Shown: positions 12,083-27,396 of the stretch, piece by piece
Numbering within the stretch: the stretch's first letter is position 1
Layout: the number at the start of each line of letters is the position of its first letter
Assembly: GCA_025352045.1 (NCBI GenBank)
Contig: JANXUD010000024.1
Coordinates: 1 to 33,073, forward strand
Length of the DNA stretch: 33,073 bases
Source of the DNA: Gammaproteobacteria bacterium
Lineage (GTDB): Bacteria > Pseudomonadota > Gammaproteobacteria > Xanthomonadales > Xanthomonadaceae
Direction: 5' to 3'
Position numbers and translations under genes: made by a program
Notes under the pieces: model-generated
What the model was told of the DNA's origin: nothing
Databases searched by the model: none
The model's input: the letters and a program-made list of their open reading frames with translations, nothing else

Positions 12083-13399
12083 GTGAACATTCCACGCAAG
12101 ACCTTCATCGCCGCCGCGCTCAGCGCATGCGCTGCGATCGCAGCCACGTCCGCTTCCGCGCAATCCACCGACGGCTACCACTCGATCCAGGTGTTCCCGG
12201 TGGTGGTCGACTCGGCCAGCTTCACGCAGCGCTTCGTGTTCCGCAATCCGGACCCGGACAACGCCATCACCGTCAATGCCAGCTTTTATCCCGGCACCGG
12301 CACCGCACAGACGACCCCGACCACCTGCCCGGCCTTCAGCATCCCCGCCGATGGCCAGCGCGAGTTCACCAGCCTGCGCAGCCTCTGCCCCGGCATGGTG
12401 GCCGGCAATACTTTTGGCTACCTGTACACGAACGACGCGGACCCGACCAACAAGCCGTTCGCCGCGTTCTCACGGGTGAGCAATAGCGCCGGCGCTGGCT
12501 TCAGCGTCGAAGCCTTCCCGGCGCATACCTTCACCTCGGCCGACGCCGTGGTCACCGGCCTGCGTCGCCTTGCCGCCTCCGGCGCCACGCCGGCGTTCCA
12601 GACCAACTGCTTCATCGGCAACCTGCACGACGTCACCGCGCCGGCCACGCCGACCACCACCGAAGTGTTCTACACGCTGTACGACAGCAACAACGCCCAG
12701 GTCGGAAGCACCACCTCGGTGATGCTCACGCCCGGCAAGCTGACCCGCCTGCTCGACGTGTTCACCACCGCCGGCGCGCCGGCCGGGAATTACGACAACG
12801 TGCGCGTGAAGTTCGAGGAAGTCGGTCCCGACGAGCCTGGCCTGATGACGTACTGCACCGTGCAGGACAACACCAGCTTCGGCGCCGACTTCCGCATCGG
12901 CAAGCAGGAACAAGGTTTCAGCACGCCTTACTCGAGCATCGGCGCGCAGGATGATTCGGTGAGCCGCGACTCGGTGGCGTTCCAGGACCTGTTCCTCTCG
13001 GGCGACGTGAGCCCGCGCCAGTTCGACATCCCGGCCGGCGCGTTCAGCAACACCCACGTCATCTACTTCCGCCATCCGGACCGGATCCAGTGCGAGCTGG
13101 TGAACCCGGCCACCGACGTGCGCCTGACCCCGGACGACAGCCTGGAGATGCGCCTGCTCGATGGCCAGGGCAACCTGGTCGCAGGCGGCAACAACGTGAT
13201 CGGCTTCAGCGAGATCTACCTGGGCGACAAGACCGACCGCAACTTCGGCGCGAATGGCCGCTACTCGATCGAAGTCGAGAGCAGCGGCGCCGGACTGAAC
13301 GTGAACCAGCTGCGTAATTATGGCATCCACTGCCAGAGTGGCAGCGGCCATTCGGTGGCCGACATCGTGCGCTACCACGAGCCCGTGACGCGCTTCTGA
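12083..13399 (+). CDS. Exported six-cysteine protein of unknown function, copy 1
   Basis: I do not recognise the family. The 438-residue product begins with a signal peptide cleaved after ASA at about residue 26 (mature QSTDGYHSIQVFPVVVDS). The start is GTG, supported by GGGAGAG six bases upstream. The mature part appears all-beta, with VFRNPDP, EAFPAHTFTSADAVVTGLRRL, YCTVQDNTSFGADFRIGKQ, THVIYFRHPDRIQC and EIYLGDKTDRNFGANGRYSIE as its strongest blocks. Six cysteines (TCPAF, LCPGM, NCFIG, YCTVQ, QCEL, HCQSG) are conserved in the downstream paralogue, suggesting three disulfides. The EVESSG and RYHEPVTRF ending is shared too. It is followed by a terminator, so the two copies are probably separate transcripts. 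A secreted or outer-surface role is inferred from the signal peptide only. Confidence 0.85.
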   Translation: MNIPRKTFIAAALSACAAIAATSASAQSTDGYHSIQVFPVVVDSASFTQRFVFRNPDPDNAITVNASFYPGTGTAQTTPTTCPAFSIPADGQREFTSLRSLCPGMVAGNTFGYLYTNDADPTNKPFAAFSRVSNSAGAGFSVEAFPAHTFTSADAVVTGLRRLAASGATPAFQTNCFIGNLHDVTAPATPTTTEVFYTLYDSNNAQVGSTTSVMLTPGKLTRLLDVFTTAGAPAGNYDNVRVKFEEVGPDEPGLMTYCTVQDNTSFGADFRIGKQEQGFSTPYSSIGAQDDSVSRDSVAFQDLFLSGDVSPRQFDIPAGAFSNTHVIYFRHPDRIQCELVNPATDVRLTPDDSLEMRLLDGQGNLVAGGNNVIGFSEIYLGDKTDRNFGANGRYSIEVESSGAGLNVNQLRNYGIHCQSGSGHSVADIVRYHEPVTRF

Positions 13400-13539: not shown

Positions 13540-14859
13540 ATGCCAACCCCCTCCCCGAGCAAGCGCACCTGCCGCGTGATGCCGCTGCTGCTCTGCGCCG
13601 CGGCGGGTGTCGCCGGCGCACAGACGACGGACGGGTATCACACGATCCAGGTCTTCCCTGTCGTGGTGGACAGCGGGAGCTTCACGCAGAAATTCACGTT
13701 CCGCAATCCCGACGCGTCCTTGCCGGTGACGGTGGCGGCGACCTACTACACCGGTGGCAGCGGCGCGGTCTCGACAGCGACGGCGTGCCCGGGTTTCACC
13801 ATGCCGGCTGACGGCCAACGCAGCTTCTCCAGCCTGCGCGCACTCTGCCCGGGCATCGCGGCCGGCAATACCTTCGGCTACCTGTACACGGCGGAGGACA
13901 GCAGCGGAAGCCAGCCCTACGCAGCCTATTCGCGGATCAGCAATCCGCAAGGCAACGGGTTCAGCGTCGAGGCCTTCCCGGCACACACCTTCACGTCCGC
14001 GGACACCGCGGTGACCGGCCTGCGCCGACTGGCCGCAACGCCGGGTTCACCTGCCTTCCAGAGCAACTGCTTCATCGGAAGCCTGAACGACGTGACCCCG
14101 CCCGGCACACCGGTGTCCAACGACATCGTGTATGCGCTGTTCGAGGAGAATGGCACGCCCATCGGCAACCCGGCCCTGGTCACGGTCAAGCCGGGCACGC
14201 TGACGCGTCTGCTCGACGTATTCGCGGCCGTGGGTGCACCCGCGGGCAACTACGACAACGCGCGGATCCAATTCTCCCAGTTCGGCCCGGACTACCCGGG
14301 TGTGATGACGTTCTGCACCGTCCAGGACAACACCAGCTTCGGCGCGGACTTCCGCATCGGCAAGCAGGAGTATGGCTACGGCAGCCTGTATTCGGGCCTG
14401 GCCGCACAGGACGACCACGTCGCCCGGAACAGCGACATCCGCCAGGACGTTTTCTTCAGCGGGCTGGTGTCGCCGCGGGAGTTCGACATCCCGCCCGGCG
14501 CGTACTCCAATACGCACGTCATGTACTTCCGCCACCCGGATCGGGTGCAATGCCTGTTGTACGACCCGCAGACCGGGACGCCGCTGGATGCCAGCGCCGG
14601 GCTGGAGATGCGACTGCTGGACGGCGAGGCCAACGTGATCGCGGGCGGCGACAACATGACCGGATTCGGCGAGATCTACCTCGGCGACAAGACCGACCGG
14701 AATTTCGGTGCCAACGGGCGCTACCTGATCGAGGTGGAGAGCAGCGGCTCTGGCCCGAACCTGGGGAACACGCGCAAGTACGGCCTGCGTTGCCAGAGCG
14801 GCAGCGGCCACAGCGCCGCCGACATGGTTCGCTACCACGAGGCGACGACGCGGTTCTGA
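13540..14859 (+). CDS. Exported six-cysteine protein of unknown function, copy 2
   Basis: This 439-residue protein is a tandem paralogue of the preceding exported protein, collinear over its whole length with well over half of positions identical by eye. The signal peptide (to about VAGA, mature QTTDGYHTIQVFPVVVDS) differs in sequence from that of copy 1, while the mature start is nearly the same. All six cysteines are kept (ACPGF, LCPGI, NCFIG, FCTVQ, QCLL, RCQSG). The blocks SFGADFRIGKQE, THVMYFRHPDRVQC and EIYLGDKTDRNFGANGRY are almost unchanged. GGAG precedes the ATG by eight bases. It is convergent with the amidase gene. The function is unknown; the pair looks like an older duplication under purifying selection. 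Confidence 0.85.
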   Translation: MPTPSPSKRTCRVMPLLLCAAAGVAGAQTTDGYHTIQVFPVVVDSGSFTQKFTFRNPDASLPVTVAATYYTGGSGAVSTATACPGFTMPADGQRSFSSLRALCPGIAAGNTFGYLYTAEDSSGSQPYAAYSRISNPQGNGFSVEAFPAHTFTSADTAVTGLRRLAATPGSPAFQSNCFIGSLNDVTPPGTPVSNDIVYALFEENGTPIGNPALVTVKPGTLTRLLDVFAAVGAPAGNYDNARIQFSQFGPDYPGVMTFCTVQDNTSFGADFRIGKQEYGYGSLYSGLAAQDDHVARNSDIRQDVFFSGLVSPREFDIPPGAYSNTHVMYFRHPDRVQCLLYDPQTGTPLDASAGLEMRLLDGEANVIAGGDNMTGFGEIYLGDKTDRNFGANGRYLIEVESSGSGPNLGNTRKYGLRCQSGSGHSAADMVRYHEATTRF

Positions 14860-16859: not shown

Positions 16860-17915
16860 ATGGATCCACTGCCCACGGCTGGCCTGGCGCCCAAGCGCCG
16901 GGCCGCCCTCGCCGTTCTGCTGTCCTCAAGCTTCGCCATCGCAGCCACGCTCGCGGCCTCGGCCGCACGGGCTGCCGACCCTGGTCCCTGTCCGCAATGG
17001 CGAGTCCCGGCAAGCTTCACCGTCGCGCAGACGAACGGTCCGCAGGTGCGCTTCGAACTCAGCCAGTCCGGCCCGACCTTGTCGGGCCGCGCCTCCTACG
17101 GATCGGGCGACGAGGCGGTCTCGGGCCGGGTCGAAGGCAGCATCAACGGCACCAGTTTCGCCGCACGCGCCTTCTGGACCGACAGCGGGCAGCAGAGCAT
17201 CGGCAACTATTCCGGCCAGATCCGGCCGCGCACCCTGTACGGCCAGAGTGGTCCCACCACGGTGGCCGATATCTACGATGGCACCACCTATGACGAATAC
17301 GTCACGCCGCACGAACCGGCGGGCTGGACGCTGCATGACCTGACCTGCACCTACCCCGCGCCGGGCAAGGCGCTTGGGCGCGTCAAAGTCCCGGGCAAGG
17401 TCGGCTTTGGCCGTGTCGGCACGGCATCGACGGAGCACCCGCCGATCTGCGATGCGGCGCGCTCGGCGCGCGCGCGCAATTCCCCCGCCGCTCCCGGCCT
17501 GGAGCGGCAGTGCCTGGCCAGCGGCGGGTCGCTGGCGCCGCCGGCAGGCCTTCCACCCCCACCACCGGATCCGCCGCCGCCTGATACCAGCGCGCCCACT
17601 ACCATGCCAACGCTCCCGCCGGCGTCCGCGACTTCCATCGATCCGACCCGGATCGACGGGCTTGCCGCGCTGGGTTCGACCATCGCCGGCCAGGATTCCG
17701 CGCTGGACGACGCGCGCAGCGTCGATCCGGGCGCCGCGTTCCAGCGAGGCTTCGACATCGCCACGGGCCTGTTCGCCGATCCGCGGCTGGGTGCCGAAGG
17801 CCGGCCCGACACGGACCCGGAGGCGGCGGCCATCCGCGCCTCGCTCGGTGTGGATGGACGCCGCGGCTTCGACGCCGCAGCCGCCTACCAATTCGGGAGC
17901 CAGGGTGGCCGCTGA
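16860..17915 (+). CDS. Exported protein A: beta-rich domain plus two short shared modules
   Basis: I do not recognise the family. The 351-residue product has a signal peptide (cleavage near AARA/A, residue 38) and GGGGAG before the ATG. Residues 44-170 form a beta-rich domain opening CPQW and ending YDGTTYDEY...HDLTC; protein C (21116-22129) has the same domain. Next come ALGRV and, at residues 196-224, the element ICDAARSARARNSPAAPG with cysteines C197 and C218. A proline-rich linker (PPPPPDPPPPD) leads to a second module from G297, GFDIATGLFADPRLGA, which closes with another GFDA. It heads a run of six plus-strand genes. Function unknown; a periplasmic or cell-surface location is inferred from the signal peptide and the paired cysteines. 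Confidence 0.85.
   Translation: MDPLPTAGLAPKRRAALAVLLSSSFAIAATLAASAARAADPGPCPQWRVPASFTVAQTNGPQVRFELSQSGPTLSGRASYGSGDEAVSGRVEGSINGTSFAARAFWTDSGQQSIGNYSGQIRPRTLYGQSGPTTVADIYDGTTYDEYVTPHEPAGWTLHDLTCTYPAPGKALGRVKVPGKVGFGRVGTASTEHPPICDAARSARARNSPAAPGLERQCLASGGSLAPPAGLPPPPPDPPPPDTSAPTTMPTLPPASATSIDPTRIDGLAALGSTIAGQDSALDDARSVDPGAAFQRGFDIATGLFADPRLGAEGRPDTDPEAAAIRASLGVDGRRGFDAAAAYQFGSQGGR
17445..17543 (+). repeat. ICD/ARSARAR element, copy in protein A
   Basis: This codes for residues 196-228 of protein A: ICDAARSARAR then NSPAAPGLERQC and LASGGS. The two cysteines are 21 positions apart. The DNA of the second half is almost the same as in the copies at 21653-21751 and 23758-23856. Confidence 0.85.
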
Positions 17916-17956
17916 GGCAGCCGTCCCGACGCGTTGACCACTTGAAGGGGAATGCC

Positions 17957-19378
17957 ATGGATCCGATCCGCCCGCTCACCGCCGCCAGCCGGGCGCGCAG
18001 CCTCTCGTGGCTGGCTGTGTGCTGCGCCGCCCTGGCCGCAAGCAGCACCGCGCAGGCCGGCTTCCTGGATGACCTGGCCTGCCCGCTGTTCGGCTGCGCC
18101 GACGGCCCGCCGCCCAACGGGCAACTGGCCTGCCGTACCTCGGGATTGGTCGGCCAGCCCGATTTCAGCGGCAGGCCGCCGGGCTCGGCCAGTTACCGCA
18201 TTCGCGGCAACTGCTCCAGTCCCGACCATGCGCAGTCGGTGTCCTACGACGTCGATGCAAGCTGGACGCCGTCGGAAACCGATCCCGACCGGCCCAATGC
18301 CACGGAGATCTTCCATATCACCAGCAACGACAACCTGTCGCCCGACACCCGCGCGCAGGAAGGCGGCGAAGGCTATACCGAGCACGTGCTCCTGAGTGCG
18401 CACTGCGATCGCGATCCCTGGCTGTCGCAGGCCACTTGCCGGCGCATCGGCGACAACCTTCCCGACAGCGTCCACGAAACCTGGTCGGTGGTTCCGGCCG
18501 GCCGGTTCCCGACCACGGCGTCGGCGATCGGCCCGATGGATCGCGGTCGCCTGCGCGCCGAATACAACGCCGCCAATGGCGTCGAGGACGACAGCGTCCG
18601 CGAGCGCGTGACCAATGTCCGCCCGCTTCCCGCGACCGGAAGATACGACGAGTCCACCGCCAGCGCGCGCCTCCGCCAGGACGCGGCCACGGGCACCTCC
18701 GGCAGGTTCGACGAAACCACCGCCAGCGCGCGCAGCCGCTACGGCGCCCTGCTGGGCACGGCCGAAGGCGGAGACGATGCCTCCATCCGCATCCGCATCC
18801 GCTATCCGGTGGCGCTGGGTTATCGCGACGCGCATGGCGTGTTCGATCCCAACCCGACCTCCTGCGATGCCTTCCTGGTGTCCGCAGTCCCGGCCAACGC
18901 CAGCCGCGACGACCGCCAGCCCGAACTGATCAAGGTGGCGGCGCGACCGGGCATGCGCCGCGATGGCGACGACTACGTGTGTGACTACGTGGTCTCCTAC
19001 CTCCCGCTCGACACCGACATCCGCGTGCAGGCCAGCATCGGCAGCGGACGGCAACGGTCCACCGAGGCATGGCAAGGCGGCGAGCGGGCCCAGCCGGGGC
19101 TGGGACAATTCCGTTCCGTGCTCGACGGCACGCGGGTGCTGAGCCTGTCCCGCGATCATCCACGCAGCTCGCTGGATTTCCGAATGGACTACGCGGGCGG
19201 CATCGTCAACGGCAACTTCGACCAGCGCGCCCGCGAAAACGCCGGAGCAGTCCTGCGCGCCGCGCGCGCGCCCGACCCGCCGATCTGCGGCTTCGCGCGC
19301 AGCGCCCGCGCGCGCGCCTCGCCCGCCGCGGCCGGCCTGGAAGTGCAATGCCGCGCCGCCGGCGGAACGCCGCGCTAG
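17957..19378 (+). CDS. Exported protein B ending in the ICD/ARSARAR element
   Basis: This 473-residue protein has no family I can name. It begins with a signal peptide (to about STAQA, mature GFLDDLACPLFGC). ATG 17957 is favoured over an upstream TTG because GAAGGGGA sits just before it. Pairs of cysteines occur in ACPLFGC, LACRTS, GNCSS, HCDRDPWLSQATC and CDAFL...VCDYVV. A 21-residue internal repeat lies at residues 228 and 249 (GRYDESTASAR and GRFDETTASAR). The C-terminus, residues 443-473, is a divergent copy of the element in A, C and D (ICGFARSARARASPAAAG, C444 and C465). The second module found in A and C is missing here and is coded instead by the next small gene. It lies 41 nt after gene A. 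Confidence 0.83.
   Translation: MDPIRPLTAASRARSLSWLAVCCAALAASSTAQAGFLDDLACPLFGCADGPPPNGQLACRTSGLVGQPDFSGRPPGSASYRIRGNCSSPDHAQSVSYDVDASWTPSETDPDRPNATEIFHITSNDNLSPDTRAQEGGEGYTEHVLLSAHCDRDPWLSQATCRRIGDNLPDSVHETWSVVPAGRFPTTASAIGPMDRGRLRAEYNAANGVEDDSVRERVTNVRPLPATGRYDESTASARLRQDAATGTSGRFDETTASARSRYGALLGTAEGGDDASIRIRIRYPVALGYRDAHGVFDPNPTSCDAFLVSAVPANASRDDRQPELIKVAARPGMRRDGDDYVCDYVVSYLPLDTDIRVQASIGSGRQRSTEAWQGGERAQPGLGQFRSVLDGTRVLSLSRDHPRSSLDFRMDYAGGIVNGNFDQRARENAGAVLRAARAPDPPICGFARSARARASPAAAGLEVQCRAAGGTPR
19283..19375 (+). repeat. ICD/ARSARAR element, divergent copy at the C-terminus of protein B
   Basis: This codes for ICGFARSARARASPAAAG, then LEVQC and RAAGGTPR at the extreme C-terminus. It keeps both cysteines and their 21-residue offset but differs in about a third of positions from the other three copies. 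Confidence 0.8.
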
Positions 19379-19419
19379 CCGATCCCGCAACACTTCCCGA
19401 CATCGACAAAGGACGCTTC

Positions 19420-19659
19420 ATGCGACCCTTCCCCGTGGCCCGCGCGGAACAGCGCACGTTGCGTGAACCGCTCGGCGAGGCCGAACGCGTCGGCTTCGAC
19501 ATCGCCACCGGCCTGTTCGGCGATCCGGCGCTGGGCGCGGTTGGCAACACGGCGCAGGGCCCCGGTTCGCAGGCGATCCGCAACGCGCTGACGGCGCGCG
19601 CGCAGCCCGGCTTCGATGCCTCCGCTGCCCTCCACCTCCCGCGCCACTACGGACCCTGA
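19420..19659 (+). CDS. 79-residue stand-alone GFDI/TGLF module protein
   Basis: This small open frame has AAAGGA seven bases before its ATG. After 24 lead residues it is almost entirely the module found at the C-termini of proteins A and C: GFDIATGLFGDPALGAVG from residue 25, then GPGSQAIRNAL and a closing GFDASAALHL. There is no signal peptide, so if it is translated alone it should stay in the cytoplasm. It lies 41 nt after B and 8 nt before the M48-like gene. B ends with the first shared element and this product has only the second, so together they restore the A/C arrangement. Either gene fission or a frameshift near 19376 could explain this. Conservation of the module at protein level supports it being coding. 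Confidence 0.72.
   Translation: MRPFPVARAEQRTLREPLGEAERVGFDIATGLFGDPALGAVGNTAQGPGSQAIRNALTARAQPGFDASAALHLPRHYGP
19492..19656 (+). repeat. GFDI/TGLF module, stand-alone copy
   Basis: This is one of three copies; the others are at 17748-17912 (protein A) and 21962-22126 (protein C). The common pattern is GFDI.TGLF.DP.LGA.G, a middle stretch with IR..L, and a second GFDA near the end. Each copy is 55 residues long and C-terminal. Confidence 0.8.
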
Positions 19660-19667
19660 GCCTGCGC

Positions 19668-21119
19668 ATGGCCATCGCCGACACGGGACATCGCCCTGCC
19701 GAAGCGACACTCGCGCCGTTCACGGCGAGCGAGCGCGAGAGCTTCTTCGCCAGCATCGAGCGGCATCGCCGCGCCGCGACGCGCGTCGGCTGGCTGGCCA
19801 ATGCCTGCGCCCTGGTGCTGGCCCTGGTGGTGTCCATGCTGATGGCGCCGCTGTTCTATGCGGTGATCGGCTTGTTGCTGGACCTGGTCAACCTGGCGAT
19901 ACCGACGCCGGACCTGATCGGCAAGGTGACCAACGCGGCCAGCGTCCTGGTCGATCCGCCGGAGCCGGTGCCGCCCTGGAGATATGTCGAATTTGCGCTG
20001 CTCGCCTCGATTCCGGGGCTCTGCGTGTTCTACCTGATCCAGCGCACGCTCGGGCGGCTGATGCGCGAAGCGATGGCCGGCGACGGCTCGACCTTCGCTG
20101 CGCGCGCCGCGAATGCGTCCGACCTCGGCGAGCAACGCTTCGCCAACACCGTGGCGGAGATGGCCATCGCCGCCGCACTGCCGCCGCCGCGGGTCTGGGT
20201 GACGGACAACGACGCGGTGAACGCCGCCGCGTTCGGCGCCGATGCGCGGCACGCCAACGTCATCGTCAGCACCGGTCTGTTGTCGGGCGCCACGCGCGAC
20301 GAATTGCAGGGAGTGGCAGGGCACCTGGTCGCCGAGATCGCCAACGGCGACCTGCGCATCGGCGCGCGGATCGCCACGCAGCTGGGCATGTTCGGGCTGG
20401 TTGGACGTCTCAGCCGATCGATGGCCGATCGCCAGGCGGTGGGCCGCCTGTGGCGCCTGTTGCGCCGAGCGCTGCGACCGGGCAGCAGCCAGGCGGACGG
20501 CGAGCTGGCCATGGCGCTGACCAACCCCTTCGAACAAGAGCCAGGCGCCGCGCACCAGGACGAGCCCGACACCGGCAAGGTTCCGTGGCGCACCCTGGCC
20601 TGGATGCCACTGGCCGGCCCCTTGGTATTCGCCGGCTTCTTCGGTTCTTTGGTCTGCGCGGCGATCCTGGGTCCCGTGCTGGCGATCGGCTGGCGCAGCC
20701 GCAAGTACCAGGCCGACGCCACCGCGGTGCAGTTCACGCGCAACCCGGACACACTCGGCAGCGCCCTGGAGAAGATCCGCGGCGAAGCGGTGGATGGCGC
20801 CTTTGGCGCGTGGATCGCGCACCTGTCGGTGGTGCCCAGCCCGCTGATCGGCACGCGCAGCATCCTCGGCGGTTCCAGCGCACCGATGGCGCCGTCGCTG
20901 GACAAGCGCCTGAAGGCACTCGGCCTGATGGGCGCGCAGGTGACCCCGCATGCCGGCCGCCGCGTGCCGCCGCTGGCCTGGCTCATCCTGGGGCCGGTGC
21001 TCGCGCTGGTCGCGGTGCTCATGGGCATCGTCATCCTCGGCCTGATCTATGTCTCGGCCGCGCTGTCCGGTCTGTTCACCTGGCTTCCGGTCGTGCTAGT
21101 GCACGCGCTGCTTCGATGA
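19668..21119 (+). CDS. Membrane protein of M48 peptidase ancestry lacking catalytic residues
   Basis: This 483-residue protein resembles HtpX/Ste24-type M48 metallopeptidases: hydrophobic helices at about 43-78 and 106-124, then VWVTDNDAVNAAAFGADARH and VSTGLLSGATRDELQGV, helices at 311-341 and a long hydrophobic C-terminus. Where M48 enzymes have HExxH, this protein reads H219-L-V-A-E223, so the catalytic Glu is Leu and the second zinc His is Glu. The third zinc ligand, the Glu in the R-E-Y-x-A-D motif, is Lys (R345-K-Y-Q-A-D350). Only the first His and the structural Asp residues remain. It is therefore probably a pseudo-peptidase, perhaps a binding or scaffolding membrane protein. Its TGA overlaps the ATG of gene C (ATGATGG), implying coupled translation. 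Confidence 0.85.
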   Translation: MAIADTGHRPAEATLAPFTASERESFFASIERHRRAATRVGWLANACALVLALVVSMLMAPLFYAVIGLLLDLVNLAIPTPDLIGKVTNAASVLVDPPEPVPPWRYVEFALLASIPGLCVFYLIQRTLGRLMREAMAGDGSTFAARAANASDLGEQRFANTVAEMAIAAALPPPRVWVTDNDAVNAAAFGADARHANVIVSTGLLSGATRDELQGVAGHLVAEIANGDLRIGARIATQLGMFGLVGRLSRSMADRQAVGRLWRLLRRALRPGSSQADGELAMALTNPFEQEPGAAHQDEPDTGKVPWRTLAWMPLAGPLVFAGFFGSLVCAAILGPVLAIGWRSRKYQADATAVQFTRNPDTLGSALEKIRGEAVDGAFGAWIAHLSVVPSPLIGTRSILGGSSAPMAPSLDKRLKALGLMGAQVTPHAGRRVPPLAWLILGPVLALVAVLMGIVILGLIYVSAALSGLFTWLPVVLVHALLR

Positions 21120-22129
21120 TGGCGCGCCACGCACGCCGGGCAGCAACGGCATTCATGCTGTGCGTGGCAACGGCCAGTCCGGCGACGGCCCAGCGCGTGT
21201 GCACGCAGTGGAAGGCACCTGCGCTGATGAAGGTCACGCAGTCCACCCCAGGCGGACTCGAGGTGGATTTCCAGCTGAAGCAGACCGGCTCGCAGTTGCT
21301 CGGATGGGCCCAGTACCAGACCACGCGCAAGACCGTCATCGGCAACGTGGTCGGCGACATCACCGGCGACGGCATCCACCTGCGCGTGCTGTGGACCTAC
21401 AGCGGCGACCCGAGCATCGGCCGCTACACCGGGACCATCAAGGCGCGCATCGGCGGGATCGTCGGTGACACGCAGTACGGCGAGGTCTTCGCGGGCACGA
21501 CCTACGACGAATACCGCAACCCGCCGGAGTACGTGTACTGGAACGCCTACCACTTCACCTGCCAGCTCGAGCCCTTGCCGCCGCCCGCGCCGCCACGCCC
21601 GACACTGGCGCTGGGCCGCGTTGGCCCCAGGTATTCGGGCCCGCCAGTACCGATCTGCGACGCCGCGCGTTCGGCCAGGGCACGAAATTCGCCCGCCGCC
21701 CCGGGGCTGGAGCGGCAGTGCCTGGCAAGCGGCGGCTCGATGTCGCCGCCGTTGGTGCAGGACACGCTCGAGTCCGCCACGCTCGATCGTTCAAGCCTCG
21801 AACTTGCCGCCAGGGCGGCCCAACCACCCTACGCGCCGGCCGCGCCGGAGGTCAGCGCGGCGCAGGTCGACCAGCTGGCCGCGACGGGCGCGGAGATCGC
21901 GCAGCAGGATCGGGATGTGGCCAGCGCGCGCCTGCGCGAGATCGACCCATCGTATGCGCGCGGTTTCGACATCGGCACCGGCTTGTTCGGCGATCCCGCG
22001 CTGGGGGCCGCCGGGAACACCGCGACCGGCCCGGGTTCGCTGGCCATCCGGGCGACGCTCGATGCGGCGGGCCAGCGTGGCTTCGACGCGTCGGTGGACT
22101 TCCATCTCGCACGCGGTTACCGCCGCTGA
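21116..22129 (+). CDS. Exported protein C: paralogue of protein A
   Basis: This 337-residue protein has a signal peptide (MMARHARRAATAFMLCVATA, cleavage near ATA/Q26) and the same domain order as protein A. The N-terminal beta-rich domain runs from CTQW to AGTTYDEY and HFTC. ALGRVG is followed by ICDAARSARARNSPAAPG at residues 180-208 with C181 and C202, then a variable linker. The C-terminal module starts at G283 (GFDIGTGLFGDPALGAAG and a closing GFDASVDFHLARGYRR). The long open frame upstream (from 19616) is antisense-like shadow within the M48 gene and is rejected; the ATG at 21116 overlaps the M48 stop by 4 nt. Function unknown. Confidence 0.85.
   Translation: MMARHARRAATAFMLCVATASPATAQRVCTQWKAPALMKVTQSTPGGLEVDFQLKQTGSQLLGWAQYQTTRKTVIGNVVGDITGDGIHLRVLWTYSGDPSIGRYTGTIKARIGGIVGDTQYGEVFAGTTYDEYRNPPEYVYWNAYHFTCQLEPLPPPAPPRPTLALGRVGPRYSGPPVPICDAARSARARNSPAAPGLERQCLASGGSMSPPLVQDTLESATLDRSSLELAARAAQPPYAPAAPEVSAAQVDQLAATGAEIAQQDRDVASARLREIDPSYARGFDIGTGLFGDPALGAAGNTATGPGSLAIRATLDAAGQRGFDASVDFHLARGYRR
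21653..21751 (+). repeat. ICD/ARSARAR element, copy in protein C
   Basis: This codes for the same ICDAARSARAR, NSPAAPGLERQC and LASGGS sequence as protein A, identical at every residue up to GGS although the flanking linkers differ. Confidence 0.85.
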
Positions 22130-22149
22130 CTCTCCCGAAGGAACACCAG

Positions 22150-23697
22150 ATGCGCCATGCCGACAGCCCTCCAATCGGACCCCGACACGCACGTGCGCTG
22201 CGCAGCAGCTCCCTGGTCGCGATGGCCCTGCTGGCGGCCGGGTGCAGCAAGCCGGCAGCCGAATCGCAGGACAGCGCCGAGCGTACCTATGGCGAGGGCG
22301 TGCAGCCCAACGCCGCGGTCACCTACCAGCCGGACGTCATCCTGGTGGGCGACGGCGCGAAATCGATCCGCTCCGCCAGCGCCGACGGCCGGGTCTGGAT
22401 CATCGACGGCCATGCGCCGCACGCGCAGGACCTGCGCCCGGGCAAGATCATGCTCGCCACCAGCCGTGCCGCCGGGCGGGTGATGAAGATCGAACCGCAG
22501 GGCGAAGACCTGGCGGTGACCCTGGGCCCGATGCAACTGGGCGACGTGCTGCGCGACGCGGACATCCGCTTCGATACGCCGTTCGATCCGTCCTCCCTGT
22601 CGATCCAGGCAGTTCCCGCCCTGCCCTACATGTATCGCGATTTCGCGGCCCCCGCCGGCTCGCCGCCCCCGCCGGTGCAGGTGGGGCTGGCGCCGCCCGC
22701 CGCTGCGGATCGGGCGGGCGAGTACCTGGTCCAGCTGCTGCCGATCCAGGTCGCTTCCGCGACCGCGGTTCCGATGGACAAGCTGCCGGCGGTTGGAAAG
22801 AGCGCGGGCAAGGTGTCGGTTGGCGACTGGGAAATGGAGTTGGCGGTGAAGACCGACAACCCCCTGGGCGCCAACGGCAGCGACAAGAGCAAGCAGCGGA
22901 TCGCCCTGAAGATCCTGCGCAATTTCACCGGCCCGGGCAAGACCGGGCTGAAGGCAGGCATCGACGTGGTGGTGCACGTGAGCGACCTGCGGCTGAATTC
23001 GCACACCGTCTACCACGGTGGCGAGCTCGATCAACAAGCTTCGAGCATCTCCCTGCAAGGACTGGAAGGTGTCGACGTGGACATCAGCACCGGCATCGCC
23101 GAAGCCGTGGGCGACAACAAGAAGATCCGCATCGAGATCCCCCTCGAGTTTGCAAAACCCTGCCCCGCCTACGGCATCCCGCTCATGTGCCAGGTGAAAT
23201 TCAAGTTCCTGATCGAAACCGCGCTCGGGGGAAAAAACGCGACGCTTTCCGCCGCGAGCAGGTTCAACATGAACGGCGCGTTGGGCGCGGAGGCTGGCAA
23301 GGCCATCGTCCCCAAGGCCAAGGAACGCGGGTCGATCGTCGATTCCATCAAGGGCGTGTCGCTTGGCGTCAGTGGCCTGGTTTTCACCTTCGAGACGCGT
23401 TTCATGACGGGGCTTGGCGTGCCCGCCTTCTTCACCGGCCCCTATGCCAAGTTCATCGCGGCAACCGGGGTCACTCACGCGTCGGCATTGAACATGGGCC
23501 TGATGCAGGACTGCCACGCCACCACCGTCAAGTTCGACGCCGGCGTGGGCTGGGGATTGCAGATGCCGATCCCCGAACTTCAAGCGCTGAAGAGCCTGCT
23601 GAAGGGAAAGAAATTCGAATCGGAGCCGTACGAAGTCTCGCAGACCTTCTACAACAACGACTCCTTCAGCCCCGACGTCCCCGCCTGCCACTTCTGA
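22150..23697 (+). CDS. Predicted lipoprotein of unknown function
   Basis: This 515-residue protein has a lipoprotein signal peptide with lipobox LAAGC (C32), so it is probably lipid-anchored in the envelope. I do not recognise a domain in the rest. A low-complexity Pro/Ala stretch (AAPAGSPPPPVQVGLAPPAAAD) lies at about residues 165-195. The remainder looks beta-rich, with VSVGDWEMELAVKTDNPLG and VDVDISTGIAEAVGDNKK, and there are several cysteines late in the protein (CPAYGIPLMC, DCHATT, ACHF). It does not contain either shared module. AAGGA precedes ATG 22150, 20 nt after gene C; it is the last gene of the six-gene run. The longer open frame upstream (from 21718) overlaps gene C and is rejected. 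Confidence 0.82.
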   Translation: MRHADSPPIGPRHARALRSSSLVAMALLAAGCSKPAAESQDSAERTYGEGVQPNAAVTYQPDVILVGDGAKSIRSASADGRVWIIDGHAPHAQDLRPGKIMLATSRAAGRVMKIEPQGEDLAVTLGPMQLGDVLRDADIRFDTPFDPSSLSIQAVPALPYMYRDFAAPAGSPPPPVQVGLAPPAAADRAGEYLVQLLPIQVASATAVPMDKLPAVGKSAGKVSVGDWEMELAVKTDNPLGANGSDKSKQRIALKILRNFTGPGKTGLKAGIDVVVHVSDLRLNSHTVYHGGELDQQASSISLQGLEGVDVDISTGIAEAVGDNKKIRIEIPLEFAKPCPAYGIPLMCQVKFKFLIETALGGKNATLSAASRFNMNGALGAEAGKAIVPKAKERGSIVDSIKGVSLGVSGLVFTFETRFMTGLGVPAFFTGPYAKFIAATGVTHASALNMGLMQDCHATTVKFDAGVGWGLQMPIPELQALKSLLKGKKFESEPYEVSQTFYNNDSFSPDVPACHF

Positions 23698-23754
23698 TCC
23701 CAGTACCGTCCTGTTGCCAGGGCGATCACCGGCCGAGCCCGGCCAGCGACAGAA

Positions 23755-26118
23755 TCAGGGTGGTGTCATCGAGCCGCCGCTGGCCAGGCATTGCCGCTCC
23801 AGGCCGGGCGCGGCCGGCGAGTTGCGCGCCTTGGCGCTGCGCGCGTAGTCGCAGATCGTCTTGTTTGGATCGCGGGGCGCCGCGGTGCCGACGCGGCCCA
23901 GGGCTTTCGCGGCGGGCTTGGCCGGCGTGAGTGCCTGCAATACCGCGCTGTCCGGACGCTGGTTGTCGACTTCGCTGGCCGCGTCCGACGGAAGGTTCGC
24001 ACGGATGGCGTCGTGCCGGGCTTTCGCTGTCACTTCGTTGTAGCTGTCCGATGCCGCGTAGACCGAATGGGGGAACTGCCCGGTGCACCACGCCGCCGAC
24101 GGGCTCCAGCCGCCGGCATTGCGCGCCCAGTGCGATTGCGCGAAGCGCGAACCGTCGGATTGCCGCACGGTCAGCGTGTTGTTGCCACCGTCGTTCCAGA
24201 TCGCGGCGATGTCGGCCTTGCCATCGCCATTGAAGTCGCCCGACGCCCACTTTGCCTTGTCGATCCAGCCACCGTCCCGCTGGCTCCACTGGCTCCAGTG
24301 GCCGAAGTGGCTGCCGTCCGAGGGATAGACCGCGATGGACGTCGCGTCCGCGTCATGCCACACCGCCGCCAGGTCCAGGTGCCCGTCGCCGTTGTAGTCG
24401 CCGGCAAGCCAGACGGTGGTGGCGATCCAGCCGCCCGCATTGGTGGCCCAGTGCGCGGGCGCAAAGCCCGAGCCCGTGGATTGCCAGACAGTGAGTGTGT
24501 TGCTGCCGCCGTTGTCCCAGATGGCGGCAAGGTCCCACTTGCCATCGCCGTTGAAATCACCCGAGGTCCACTTGGTGTCGTCACCCCAGCCCCCACCGCG
24601 CACGGTCCACTGGACGGGTGCCTGGAACCGGCTGCCGTCGGACAGGTACACGGCGATCGACGTGAGGTCCTGGTCCTTCCACACACCCGCCATGTCCATG
24701 TGGCCGTCGCCGTTGAAATCGCCCGGCAGCCACACGGTGGAGTCGACCCAGGTTCCCGCGCGGATGGCCCAGTGCACGGCAGAAAATCCCCGGGCGGTGG
24801 ATTGCCGGACGGTGAGCGTCGTGCTTCCGGCATCGTCCCAGGCGGCGAGGACATCGGTGTTGCCGTCGCCGGTGAAATCCGCAGCGGCCCACTTCGCGCT
24901 CGGGCTCCATCCGCCATTGCGCTTGCTGGCGTGGAAGGGCGCGGTGAAATGCGCGCCGTCGGAGGGAAACACGGCGATGGACGTCGCGTTGGCGTCGTCC
25001 CAGACCCCGGCCAGGTCGGCGATGCCCTTCGCGCCCGGCGCAGAGGTGCAGGTGTTGGCGCCGAACTGGGACACGAACGGCGCTTCCACGATGAGGCCCG
25101 TGGAGGCCGAAGCCACGGTCTTGCCCAGCTTGAGGCAATCGGCGCTGCTGCCGCTCCTGCAGGCCGAGGCGCTTTCCACGCCATCCGGCACGCCTCCCAG
25201 CGGCGTGCCCTGGGCGGCCTCCTTGCCCAGTGCGATGCAGGCGTCCTTCTTGCCATCGGCGCAGTCCTGGGCATTGCCGAAGAGACCGACGAACTTGCCG
25301 GCATTGATGCCGCTTGCCTCGGAGGCCGCGTCGCCGACGCGCATGCACGCCGCGAAATCATCGTTCGCGCATTTGGCCACGTCCTCGCCAAGCACCAGCT
25401 TGTCCGCGCCGGGGATGTCGAGCCCCGCGATGTTGGCGCCGTGCACGCCGAGCTTGGCGCAGGAGACGACATCGCCATCCAGGCACTGCGGCACCTGCGC
25501 CGCCACCTGGATCGCCTGGCCGACTTCGCCGGGGATTTCCAGCCCGGCCTGGGTCGAGACATCCAGCGCCAGCACCGCGCAGGCGTAGATCTGCCCGTAC
25601 ACGCAGGCGGCCGCAGCCACCGCTTCGCCGACGAACGGCGCAGCCGCGACGAGCCCCTGGCCGACTCCCGTCACGATATGGACGAACTGTTCGCCCAGGG
25701 TGTCGGGGTGGGAGCGGGGCTGGCAACCAATGATCCGCGTCCCGTCCGGGTTGTCGTGGGCGGCCGTATACGCGTCGCGGTCGGCGCAGTACTTCGTGAT
25801 GCCCATGAAATCCAGGCAGACGTCCACGTCATCGTCGTGCGAAGCGCTGCCCCGCGACCATTCGCTGAAGGCCCGGGTGCAAAACCCCGCATTGGGAATC
25901 GCGGGATACAACACATCGTGGCAGGGCCCGGTGACCGCCCCGCGCGAATCGTGCACGCAGACACGCTCGGTATGGGCGGGCTTGTACACGTCCTTGAGCT
26001 CGGCCCGGGCTGGCGCGGACCAGGCCGCCAGCATCACCAGCATCGCCATCGGGAGCGCGAGGACCGCGCGCAGCCGCCGCAATCCCGCCTCGCGGCGAAG
26101 TTGTCCAAGAGCAAGCAT
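23755..26118 (-). CDS. Exported protein D: Cys-x7-Cys repeats, FG-GAP-type repeats and ICD/ARSARAR element
   Basis: This 787-residue protein has a signal peptide (to about APARA, residue 39) and GGGGA before the ATG at 26118. Residues 172-328 hold five Cys-x7-Cys pairs (C172/180, 212/220, 250/258, 286/294, 320/328), each usually followed by a small hydrophobic residue and Gly. The pairing distance resembles that of disulfide-bonded Sel1-like (Hcp) repeats, but the intervening sequence differs. From about 370 to 680 come FG-GAP/VCBS-like units with calcium-binding-type loops: DFTGDGNTD at 414, DFNGDGHMD, DFNGDGKWD, DYNGDGHLD and DFNGDGKAD. The units alternate between two types. The last 33 residues are the ICDYARSAKARNSPAAPG element (C756, C777), preceded by ALGRVG. 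It is convergent with the lipoprotein gene. A large exported binding protein is the likely type; the ligand is unknown. Confidence 0.85.
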   Translation of the reverse strand: MLALGQLRREAGLRRLRAVLALPMAMLVMLAAWSAPARAELKDVYKPAHTERVCVHDSRGAVTGPCHDVLYPAIPNAGFCTRAFSEWSRGSASHDDDVDVCLDFMGITKYCADRDAYTAAHDNPDGTRIIGCQPRSHPDTLGEQFVHIVTGVGQGLVAAAPFVGEAVAAAACVYGQIYACAVLALDVSTQAGLEIPGEVGQAIQVAAQVPQCLDGDVVSCAKLGVHGANIAGLDIPGADKLVLGEDVAKCANDDFAACMRVGDAASEASGINAGKFVGLFGNAQDCADGKKDACIALGKEAAQGTPLGGVPDGVESASACRSGSSADCLKLGKTVASASTGLIVEAPFVSQFGANTCTSAPGAKGIADLAGVWDDANATSIAVFPSDGAHFTAPFHASKRNGGWSPSAKWAAADFTGDGNTDVLAAWDDAGSTTLTVRQSTARGFSAVHWAIRAGTWVDSTVWLPGDFNGDGHMDMAGVWKDQDLTSIAVYLSDGSRFQAPVQWTVRGGGWGDDTKWTSGDFNGDGKWDLAAIWDNGGSNTLTVWQSTGSGFAPAHWATNAGGWIATTVWLAGDYNGDGHLDLAAVWHDADATSIAVYPSDGSHFGHWSQWSQRDGGWIDKAKWASGDFNGDGKADIAAIWNDGGNNTLTVRQSDGSRFAQSHWARNAGGWSPSAAWCTGQFPHSVYAASDSYNEVTAKARHDAIRANLPSDAASEVDNQRPDSAVLQALTPAKPAAKALGRVGTAAPRDPNKTICDYARSAKARNSPAAPGLERQCLASGGSMTPP
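23758..23856 (-). repeat. ICD/ARSARAR element, copy at the C-terminus of protein D
   Basis: This codes for ICDYARSAKAR, NSPAAPGLERQC and LASGGS near the stop codon. Over the second half it differs from the protein A copy at only a few third-codon positions although the hosts are otherwise unrelated. Confidence 0.85.
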
Positions 26119-26244
26119 CGACAATCCCCTGGCTTGGTCGGCCTGGCGTGATCGGCCTGGCGCGGTGGGGCTAGAGTGCTCCGTTCCGCGGCCGGGTGCA
26201 AAGCCATGGCGTGCGCCGTGCCGCACCGGTCATCCGCATCGGGG

Positions 26245-27195
26245 TCAGGGCCGCGGGTCGCGCCTGGCGGCGATCCGGCGCGCGCCGCGGCGCAGGGCCT
26301 GCAACATCCGCCATGCCAGGCTGCCGCGAACCAGGCCGACCGCACGCAGCGTTTCCTCGATCCTGGCCTGCGCGCCCTGCAGGTCGCGGTACAGGCGCTG
26401 GAGATGCCGGTCGCGGTTGCCCAGCAGCGCGCGCAGTTCCTGCAGGTCGCCCTCGGCCAGCACCATGCCCGGTGCGAAACGGTCCGGAAGCGGTGCATCC
26501 ACGTAGACCGTCGAATGGGTCGCGGCGAGTTCTTCCCGGGGTCGGTCGGTCGAATAGAAGTACAGCGCGATCGACTTCCGCGACACGTCCTTCATGCCAT
26601 CCGGCAGGCGGATGGGCGAGAACCCGTGCCAGCTCCACTCCGTGGTCTCGAAGATCACCGCGCGGTTGAACAGCGGCGACAACCGCACGACCTCGTCGTC
26701 GGCCGCACGGGGGTCTCGGTGCAGCTCGAGAGTGCCGCCCCAGTCGTCGTTCCAGCCATGGTTCAGATAGACGATCAGGTTCAGCCGGCGATGCGCATGC
26801 GTGACCGGGTGACGGTTGAAATCCACGTGCGCATCCAGGGCCTGGCCGTCGCGGTTCTCGTGCGTGCCGCCGCCGAGGTAGAGCGGATCGTAGAGCAGGT
26901 CGGCGATGCCGGTGATGCGCGACACCAGCGCGAGGAAACCCGGGATCCGCACCATGTCGTCGAGCGCGGCGTACGCAGGTCCGAGCGCGCGCAACGATTC
27001 GTGCACCGCCTTGTTGCCGACGACGCCGTCCTCGTTGAGCGCGCGCGCGCGCACGAACGGCGGAAACTCCGCCAGCAGCTGCCGCGCGAGCGTGGCCTCG
27101 AGGAAATCCTCGATCACCACGTGCCGGAACGGGGTCGCCGTCGCGAACCGCCGCGCGAGTTCGCTCGCCTCCGCATCCAGCCCATCCCGGAGCAT
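26245..27195 (-). CDS. 2-oxoglutarate/Fe(II)-dependent oxygenase (prolyl 4-hydroxylase-like)
   Basis: This 316-residue cytosolic protein has a double-stranded beta-helix oxygenase core with the Fe-binding triad H123-V-D125 (DAHVDFNRHP) and H190 (EWSWHGFS), and R206 (RKSIALYFY) for the 2-oxoglutarate carboxylate. Such enzymes hydroxylate proteins or small molecules, or act on glycan-linked substrates. After the core (about residue 225) comes a coiled-coil-prone tail (LQELRALLGNRDRHLQRLYRDL) ending SLAWRMLQALRRGARR; a similar W-R...P/A-L-R tail is common on glycosyltransferases and methyltransferases of polysaccharide clusters. ATG 27195 is chosen over GTG 27201 because GGAGG lies seven bases before it. 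It is downstream of no partner on this strand and follows gene D in layout only. Its substrate is unknown. Confidence 0.85.
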   Translation of the reverse strand: MLRDGLDAEASELARRFATATPFRHVVIEDFLEATLARQLLAEFPPFVRARALNEDGVVGNKAVHESLRALGPAYAALDDMVRIPGFLALVSRITGIADLLYDPLYLGGGTHENRDGQALDAHVDFNRHPVTHAHRRLNLIVYLNHGWNDDWGGTLELHRDPRAADDEVVRLSPLFNRAVIFETTEWSWHGFSPIRLPDGMKDVSRKSIALYFYSTDRPREELAATHSTVYVDAPLPDRFAPGMVLAEGDLQELRALLGNRDRHLQRLYRDLQGAQARIEETLRAVGLVRGSLAWRMLQALRRGARRIAARRDPRP

Positions 27196-27396
27196 CGCCA
27201 CCCTCCATCATTCCCGCCGCCGATCATACCCGCGCGGTGCGGCCGTCACCGGAACGCCTTCGCTGCAACATCGCAACAACGAGATCGACCACGTGTGAAA
27301 TATTTGCGCTGGCCGGGTTTGAATTGCGCCAGCGTTGTCCTGTTCGCAGCCGGCATCCTTGCACCACGCATCGATGCGAACCCATGAGGAACCGCC

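Follow-up and report, generated by a model that had tools for sequence, protein, structure and literature searches.

The locus raises a simple question: why should exported proteins with differing domains carry one and the same short cysteine-pair element? The window, by which we mean the whole 33,073-nucleotide stretch analysed (contig JANXUD010000024.1 of the gammaproteobacterial assembly GCA_025352045.1), encodes four such proteins, A, B, C and D, and all four copies of the element noticed in a first-pass annotation were located in open frames (Table 1). The element comprises 26 residues with two cysteines 21 positions apart and reads PICDAARSARARNSPAAPGLERQCLA in A and C, TICDYARSAKARNSPAAPGLERQCLA in D and PICGFARSARARASPAAAGLEVQCRA in B. 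The original description of the copies as near-identical suits A, C and D, with 0–3 differences from the element of C over the 26 residues, but not B, with 6. As described, the element is C-terminal in B and D, where 8 and 10 residues follow the second cysteine, whereas A and C run on; likewise, A, C and D, but not B, have a segment reading ALGRV or GFGRV ahead of it. The claim that the four hosts are unrelated had to be given up: A and C are 42% identical over about 300 residues (E 6e-66) and are paralogues, so that the number of host types in the window falls from four to three. The N-termini of the four hosts resemble signal peptides, as judged by eye and with a crude script, which misplaced the site in C.

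Table 1. Coordinates of the cysteine element, its host proteins and neighbouring features in the window
Feature	Position	Strand	Remark
Cys element of A, internal	17442-17519	+	profile search and strict two-cysteine motif
Cys element of B, C-terminal	19280-19357	+	profile search and strict two-cysteine motif
Cys element of C, internal	21650-21727	+	profile search and strict motif; AlphaFold2 helices predicted at residues 179-188 and 194-203
Cys element of D, C-terminal	23782-23859	-	profile search and strict two-cysteine motif
ALGRV segment of A	17370-17384	+	
GFGRV, second segment of A	17403-17417	+	
ALGRV segment of C	21608-21622	+	
ALGRV segment of D	23890-23904	-	
Protein A	16860..17915	+	signal peptide, avidin-like barrel, ALGRV/GFGRV, Cys element, GFD helical domain
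Protein B	17957..19378	+	N-terminal domain without family assignment, Cys element at extreme C-terminus
79-residue open reading frame	19420..19659	+	GFD domain alone, without element; possibly a remnant
HtpX/M48-like membrane protein	19668..21119	+	zinc motif lost, probable pseudoprotease
Protein C	21119..22129	+	paralogue of A, same architecture
Lipoprotein without known family	22150..23697	+	adjoins C; weak relative (E 7e-5) in the G073 locus
Protein D	23755..26118	-	signal peptide, Cys-rich N-terminal region, FG-GAP repeats, ALGRV, C-terminal Cys element; frame opens at 26226
Barrel of A, N-terminal	16983-17351	+	
Barrel of C, N-terminal	21194-21565	+	
GFD domains	17655-17912, 19426-19656, 21869-22126	+	

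The recurrence of the element is not a matter of chance. With 50 residues of C as the sole query, the source genome (G000) returned A at an expectation value (E) of 1.0e-17, D at 1.8e-17 and B at 2.5e-8, together with an additional host on contig C35 (E 2.1e-10); the profile values of 4e-14 to 7e-23 follow by construction, because the copies sit in the profile. The element does not coincide with a known domain in the models searched. No listed Pfam or NCBIfam stretch fell over it in nine window proteins, nor did Pfam cover it in 12 of the 15 hosts described below (all but the G073 B-type, G606 D-type and G005 C35-type proteins) or NCBIfam in 7 of the 15, and the element profile matched no Protein Data Bank (PDB) sequence, in each case at E up to 1. 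Literature searches found no description of the element, although the string search among them would overlook any paper in which the sequence is not printed, and seven window proteins had no match among the PADLOC defence systems.

All four window copies lie within 7 kb, so any wider spread was not visible from the window alone; searches with a profile of initially 10 and later 16 copies showed it. These searches amounted to 1,993 genome look-ups, partly repeated, and where 299 or more genomes were searched, scoring was limited to the 18 to 24 best candidates of each. Within the family, that of Cognatiluteimonas profundi (formerly Lysobacter profundi) and thus, judging from G028, the Lysobacteraceae, 6 of 395 genomes matched below E 1e-13 (G000, G005, G028, G073, G185 and G606), and six further genomes, lacking the motif, matched at E 3e-4 to 1e-3. 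The order yielded three genomes of 299, all from this family, plus three weak motif-less matches; the class (369 genomes) gave G000 as the only credible match and two weak ones; and among 398 genomes of the phylum two reached E 1e-4 or better, G000 and, from outside the class, G1246 (E 1e-16). A scan of 84,980 species with an alignment of C-type proteins returned three loci, of which L053 (a proteobacterial metagenome-assembled genome, G979) and L054 (C. profundi, Lysobacteraceae; G028:C13) contain the element and L055 (a Parafilimonas metagenome-assembled genome) has the downstream GFD domain only. The same scan with a 43-residue alignment confirmed no locus, and a C-type query found nothing in viral contigs, plasmids or phages.

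In total, 20 copies were found on 15 exported proteins in eight genomes—the six of the family, G979 and G1246—with six copies in the source genome, four in the window and two in tandem in the contig C35 protein. The element is thus not confined to its source genome, and the profile search proposed in the first-pass annotation bore out recurrence on diverse exported proteins of one clade. Weak profile matches in ten genomes (G004, G114, G397, G485, G646, G682, G684, G719, G787 and G947; E 3e-4 to 1e-3) and weak single-query matches in G036 and G050 (E 0.008–0.009) were not counted. None of these 12 weak-match loci contains the strict motif, whichever frame is read; some C-x20-C pair does lie near the match in four (L039, L040, L041 and L043), in frames without the remaining motif. 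Distant copies may have been missed by the searches.

The hosts differ in their N-terminal domains. An avidin-like barrel is combined with GFD in A, C and the hosts at L053 and L054, and with a CARDB-like module in the G1246 host; C35-type hosts (G000 and G005) carry two copies each and a CARDB-like module. B-type hosts are B itself and a G073 protein. D-type hosts have FG-GAP repeats in D and its G005 relative, where Pfam matches them ahead of the element, and are without them in G028 and G606, with two copies each. Jacalin-like hosts, under the Pfam cut-off, occur in G073 (two copies) and G185. GFD and CARDB-like are names coined here, with no family model above cut-off on either. The element stands at the extreme C-terminus in 8 of the 15 hosts and internally, ahead of the GFD domain or CARDB-like module, in the other 7. 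In 13 hosts it follows an ALGRV-like segment, and tandem double copies are found in 5. Relatives of B in G185 and C. profundi have no element, and a barrel protein of G606 has ALGRV without it. Being present, absent or doubled on related hosts, the element behaves as a movable cassette: it is a conserved, movable module of exported proteins that none of the models searched covers. As regards GFD itself, a small open reading frame (L056 10529-10795) fuses the start of a barrel to the end of GFD, apparently a remnant of internal deletion, and the helical domain occurs in tandem at a protein end on the Parafilimonas contig (L055 4052-4546).

The element is also generally better conserved than the proteins that carry it. 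In seven homologous host pairs, compared by identity and by the ratio of nonsynonymous to synonymous differences (pN/pS), its identity exceeded that of the rest of the protein in six and equalled it in the seventh, the G028–G606 D-type pair (0.78 for both); its pN/pS was lower than that of the rest in six of seven. One pair, G073–G185, compares a double copy with a single one, and part of its alignment is wrong. Between A and C the element is identical at 25 of 25 residues at a pS of 0.55, against 41% identity at a pS of 0.52 for the rest, and is therefore not a recent copy. Because pS is probably near saturation in these GC-rich genomes, ages are not readable from these values.

A profile search of the fetched loci that did not require cysteines recovered 20 distinct copies, all of which passed the strict two-cysteine motif; both cysteines and their spacing of 21 are kept in 20 of 20. 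Seven positions are invariant (C3, A6, A9, P15, L20, C24 and A26), positions 10–18 (R-A-R-N-S-P-A-A-P) are kept in 15 to 20 copies, and the net charge is +1 to +3 in 18. AlphaFold2 predicted two helices for the element alone (residues 18–27 and 33–42 of the query, with cysteines at 19 and 40) at a mean predicted local distance difference test (pLDDT) score of 90 over residues 21–40. The same two helices appeared in a full-length model of C (mean pLDDT 67) at pLDDT about 65–77, with barrel (27–150), hairpin (179–188 and 194–203) and GFD helices (247–333) separate. The element is therefore best described, on these models, as a predicted two-helix hairpin with one disulfide, in which the cysteines should apparently come together and the alanines at every third residue of helix 1 may face L20 and C24 of helix 2 in a tight packing. 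In each of the 15 hosts the cysteines outside the element are even in number (two in C, counted by hand), which favours an intramolecular disulfide. Alpha-hairpinins and CHCH proteins are likewise helical hairpins closed by disulfide, with two short helices stapled together, but the element has one disulfide, is bacterial, lies within larger exported proteins and, as a predicted hairpin, had no Foldseek match in the PDB up to E 10.

We tentatively propose, with a probability of roughly 0.4, that the element is a docking or retention module of exported proteins. The module, which in 13 of 15 hosts follows a linker with the ALGRV-like segment, would fold independently as two short helices, a turn (S-P-A-A-P in most copies) and one disulfide. 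The cassette would be shuffled between exported proteins with differing, mostly binding-type domains (avidin-like barrel, FG-GAP, jacalin-like and others); after Sec export the disulfide would form in the periplasm, a common cell-envelope partner would recognise the mostly positive hairpin, and various binding proteins would thereby be held at, or assembled on, one place. Recurrence, the conserved cysteines and core, and modularity are observed, and the hairpin and its disulfide are modelled; from these we infer docking and, among the handling steps first envisaged, anchoring, sorting or partner binding.

Turning to a possible partner, a DUF3558-like lipoprotein is encoded within two genes of an element host at five loci, and at a sixth by a weak match. 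A profile of five such proteins matched six of the eight element genomes, all six in the family, and none of 24 controls without a credible element (16 of the same genus, 8 of the family). In a family draw of 247 genomes, 19 matched at E up to 0.001; below 1e-19 were only G000, G028, G073, G185 and G606, the next value being 5e-7. Against PF12079 (gathering cut-off 34.1) the lipoprotein of C35 scored 39.8 bits, above the cut-off, and the G185, the weak G028 and the second G073 proteins scored 25 to 32.8, under it. No described function of DUF3558 was found in the literature. This lipoprotein is the best candidate docking partner at these loci. The hairpin and the lipoprotein might even be the two halves of a previously undescribed tag–receptor pair that displays changeable lectin-like or other binding proteins on the cell surface, which we regard as rather improbable.

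Several observations weigh against docking or its proposed partner. Internal placement in seven hosts is at odds with a C-terminal sorting signal. In the D–G005 pair the pN/pS of the element (0.57) is above that of the rest (0.53), one element has a net charge of 0 and another of -1, and the AlphaFold2 input comprised 6 rows for the element and 4 for C, with output that gave no coordinates for an S–S distance. The 15 hosts are related within types, so the evenness of their cysteine counts carries less weight than 15 independent observations would. As for the lipoprotein, the profile search did not find it in G979 or G1246, the 33-kb window locus has no DUF3558 gene, and 14 further family genomes of the 247 match weakly (E 5e-7 to 9e-4). 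Five of the six family genomes contributed to the profile, leaving G005 as the only independent match, a contig-end fragment. DUF3558 genes also stand beside the element-less B relatives of C. profundi and G185, and no element lies near the copies G000:C13, G000:C17, G005:C8 (the only copy of G005) and G028:C13 at 914 kb. Hence the lipoprotein may simply travel with the same loci, and the co-occurrence numbers would also be expected from co-inheritance of a gene cluster. The co-occurring gene anticipated at the outset was thus found, but it is tied to a locus family and not strictly to the element.

The main rival to a docking tag is a structural cap or spacer, a hairpin whose sole role would be to terminate or space domains in a stable way outside the cell, and which would spread by recombination between tandem paralogues, with no specific partner. 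The clustered paralogous host loci with their likely recombination products (such as the barrel–GFD remnant and a barrel-plus-CARDB-like host that has ALGRV and no element) and the tandem copies in five hosts would suit it. We nevertheless consider it unlikely: the polar residues R10, R12, N13, S14, E21 and Q23, likely exposed, recur in 16 to 19 of the 20 copies, and A and C agree at 25 of 25 residues with a synonymous divergence of about 0.5.

MYXO-CTERM, PEP-CTERM and GlyGly-CTERM tags stand at the very C-terminus and include a transmembrane helix and a basic tail. The element resembles them as a short conserved tag that occurs sporadically across genomes on exported proteins with unrelated N-terminal domains, but lacks both the transmembrane helix and the basic tail, contains two cysteines and stands internally in 7 of the 15 hosts. 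A processing or sorting signal, with a protease cutting in or near the ALGRV–hairpin segment to release or attach the protein, is improbable to us. C-terminal placement in 8 hosts and the invariant cysteine that MYXO-CTERM tags also have (PMC11980579) speak for it, but the tails of these 8 hosts are 6–13 residues long with no hydrophobic stretch visible by eye, 7 hosts carry the element internally, and the compared loci share no protease gene other than the M48-like one without zinc motif (sortase-type genes were not searched for).

A further alternative would make the element a ligand of the avidin-like barrel of A and C, joining tagged proteins to the barrel as the bradavidin tail does. Among the 50 Foldseek matches listed for the barrel of C, 43 are avidins, with rhizavidin, streptavidin and agroavidin ranking high, though none reaches E 0.001; the best, 3ew1, has E 2.4e-3, probability 1.00 and a template-modelling (TM) score by target of about 0.5. 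The Pfam avidin model matched neither barrel at E up to 1. According to PMC5398887, the C-terminal tail of bradavidin (Brad-tag) fills the biotin site of a neighbouring subunit, and PMC8033661 describes extended avidins with somewhat conserved extensions of roughly 150 residues in which no domain was identified. The element likewise extends behind an avidin-type barrel but, unlike these extensions, also occurs on barrel-less hosts and is predicted as a folded disulfide hairpin, not an extended tail. The barrel is present in five of eight element genomes and none of the 24 controls, and was not found in G005 (97% complete), G185 (100%) or G073 (89%), which led us to reject it as a universal receptor and makes the ligand reading very improbable. 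Least probable is disulfide-linked assembly, an early suggestion in which the cysteines would cross-link tagged proteins to one another or to a partner; it would fit cysteines in 20 of 20 copies on exported proteins, but even cysteine counts in the 15 hosts, exactly two cysteines per element and a predicted hairpin that would bring both together speak against it.

Several neighbouring genes were also considered. HExxH is the zinc motif of HtpX; the HtpX/M48-like protein reads HLVAE at this site and its C. profundi orthologue (70% identical), which lies near the C-type gene there, reads HLVGS, so that it is probably a conserved pseudoprotease near C-type genes, to judge from its sequence. As a universal partner it was rejected: full-length matches occur only in G000 and C. 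profundi, and the other six element genomes gave partial HtpX-type matches only. A 2-oxoglutarate–Fe(II) oxygenase-like gene (26245-27201) lies directly upstream of D on the same strand; as an element-modifying enzyme it was set aside, having no relative among the compared element loci. Two exported tandem paralogues (12083-13399 and 13540-14859) are 64% identical. At L056 (1736-7026) and L064 (4154-12029), from two classes, an element gene lies near dsbD-like or dsbA-like genes and aroQ-accB-accC, possibly by coincidence, the gene names being read from translations.

The work defines a searchable module, C-x2-A-x2-A-x5-P-x-[AT]-x2-L-x3-C-x-A, usually after ALGRV, which ties together otherwise unrelated hypothetical exported proteins and hints at a shared handling step, testable in the named species C. 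profundi. Should the element prove to be a docking tag, the known C-terminal sorting tags would have an alternative based on a disulfide hairpin; if the tag–receptor reading were true, it would give DUF3558 a function, with sorting by way of a disulfide hairpin and not a sortase signal.

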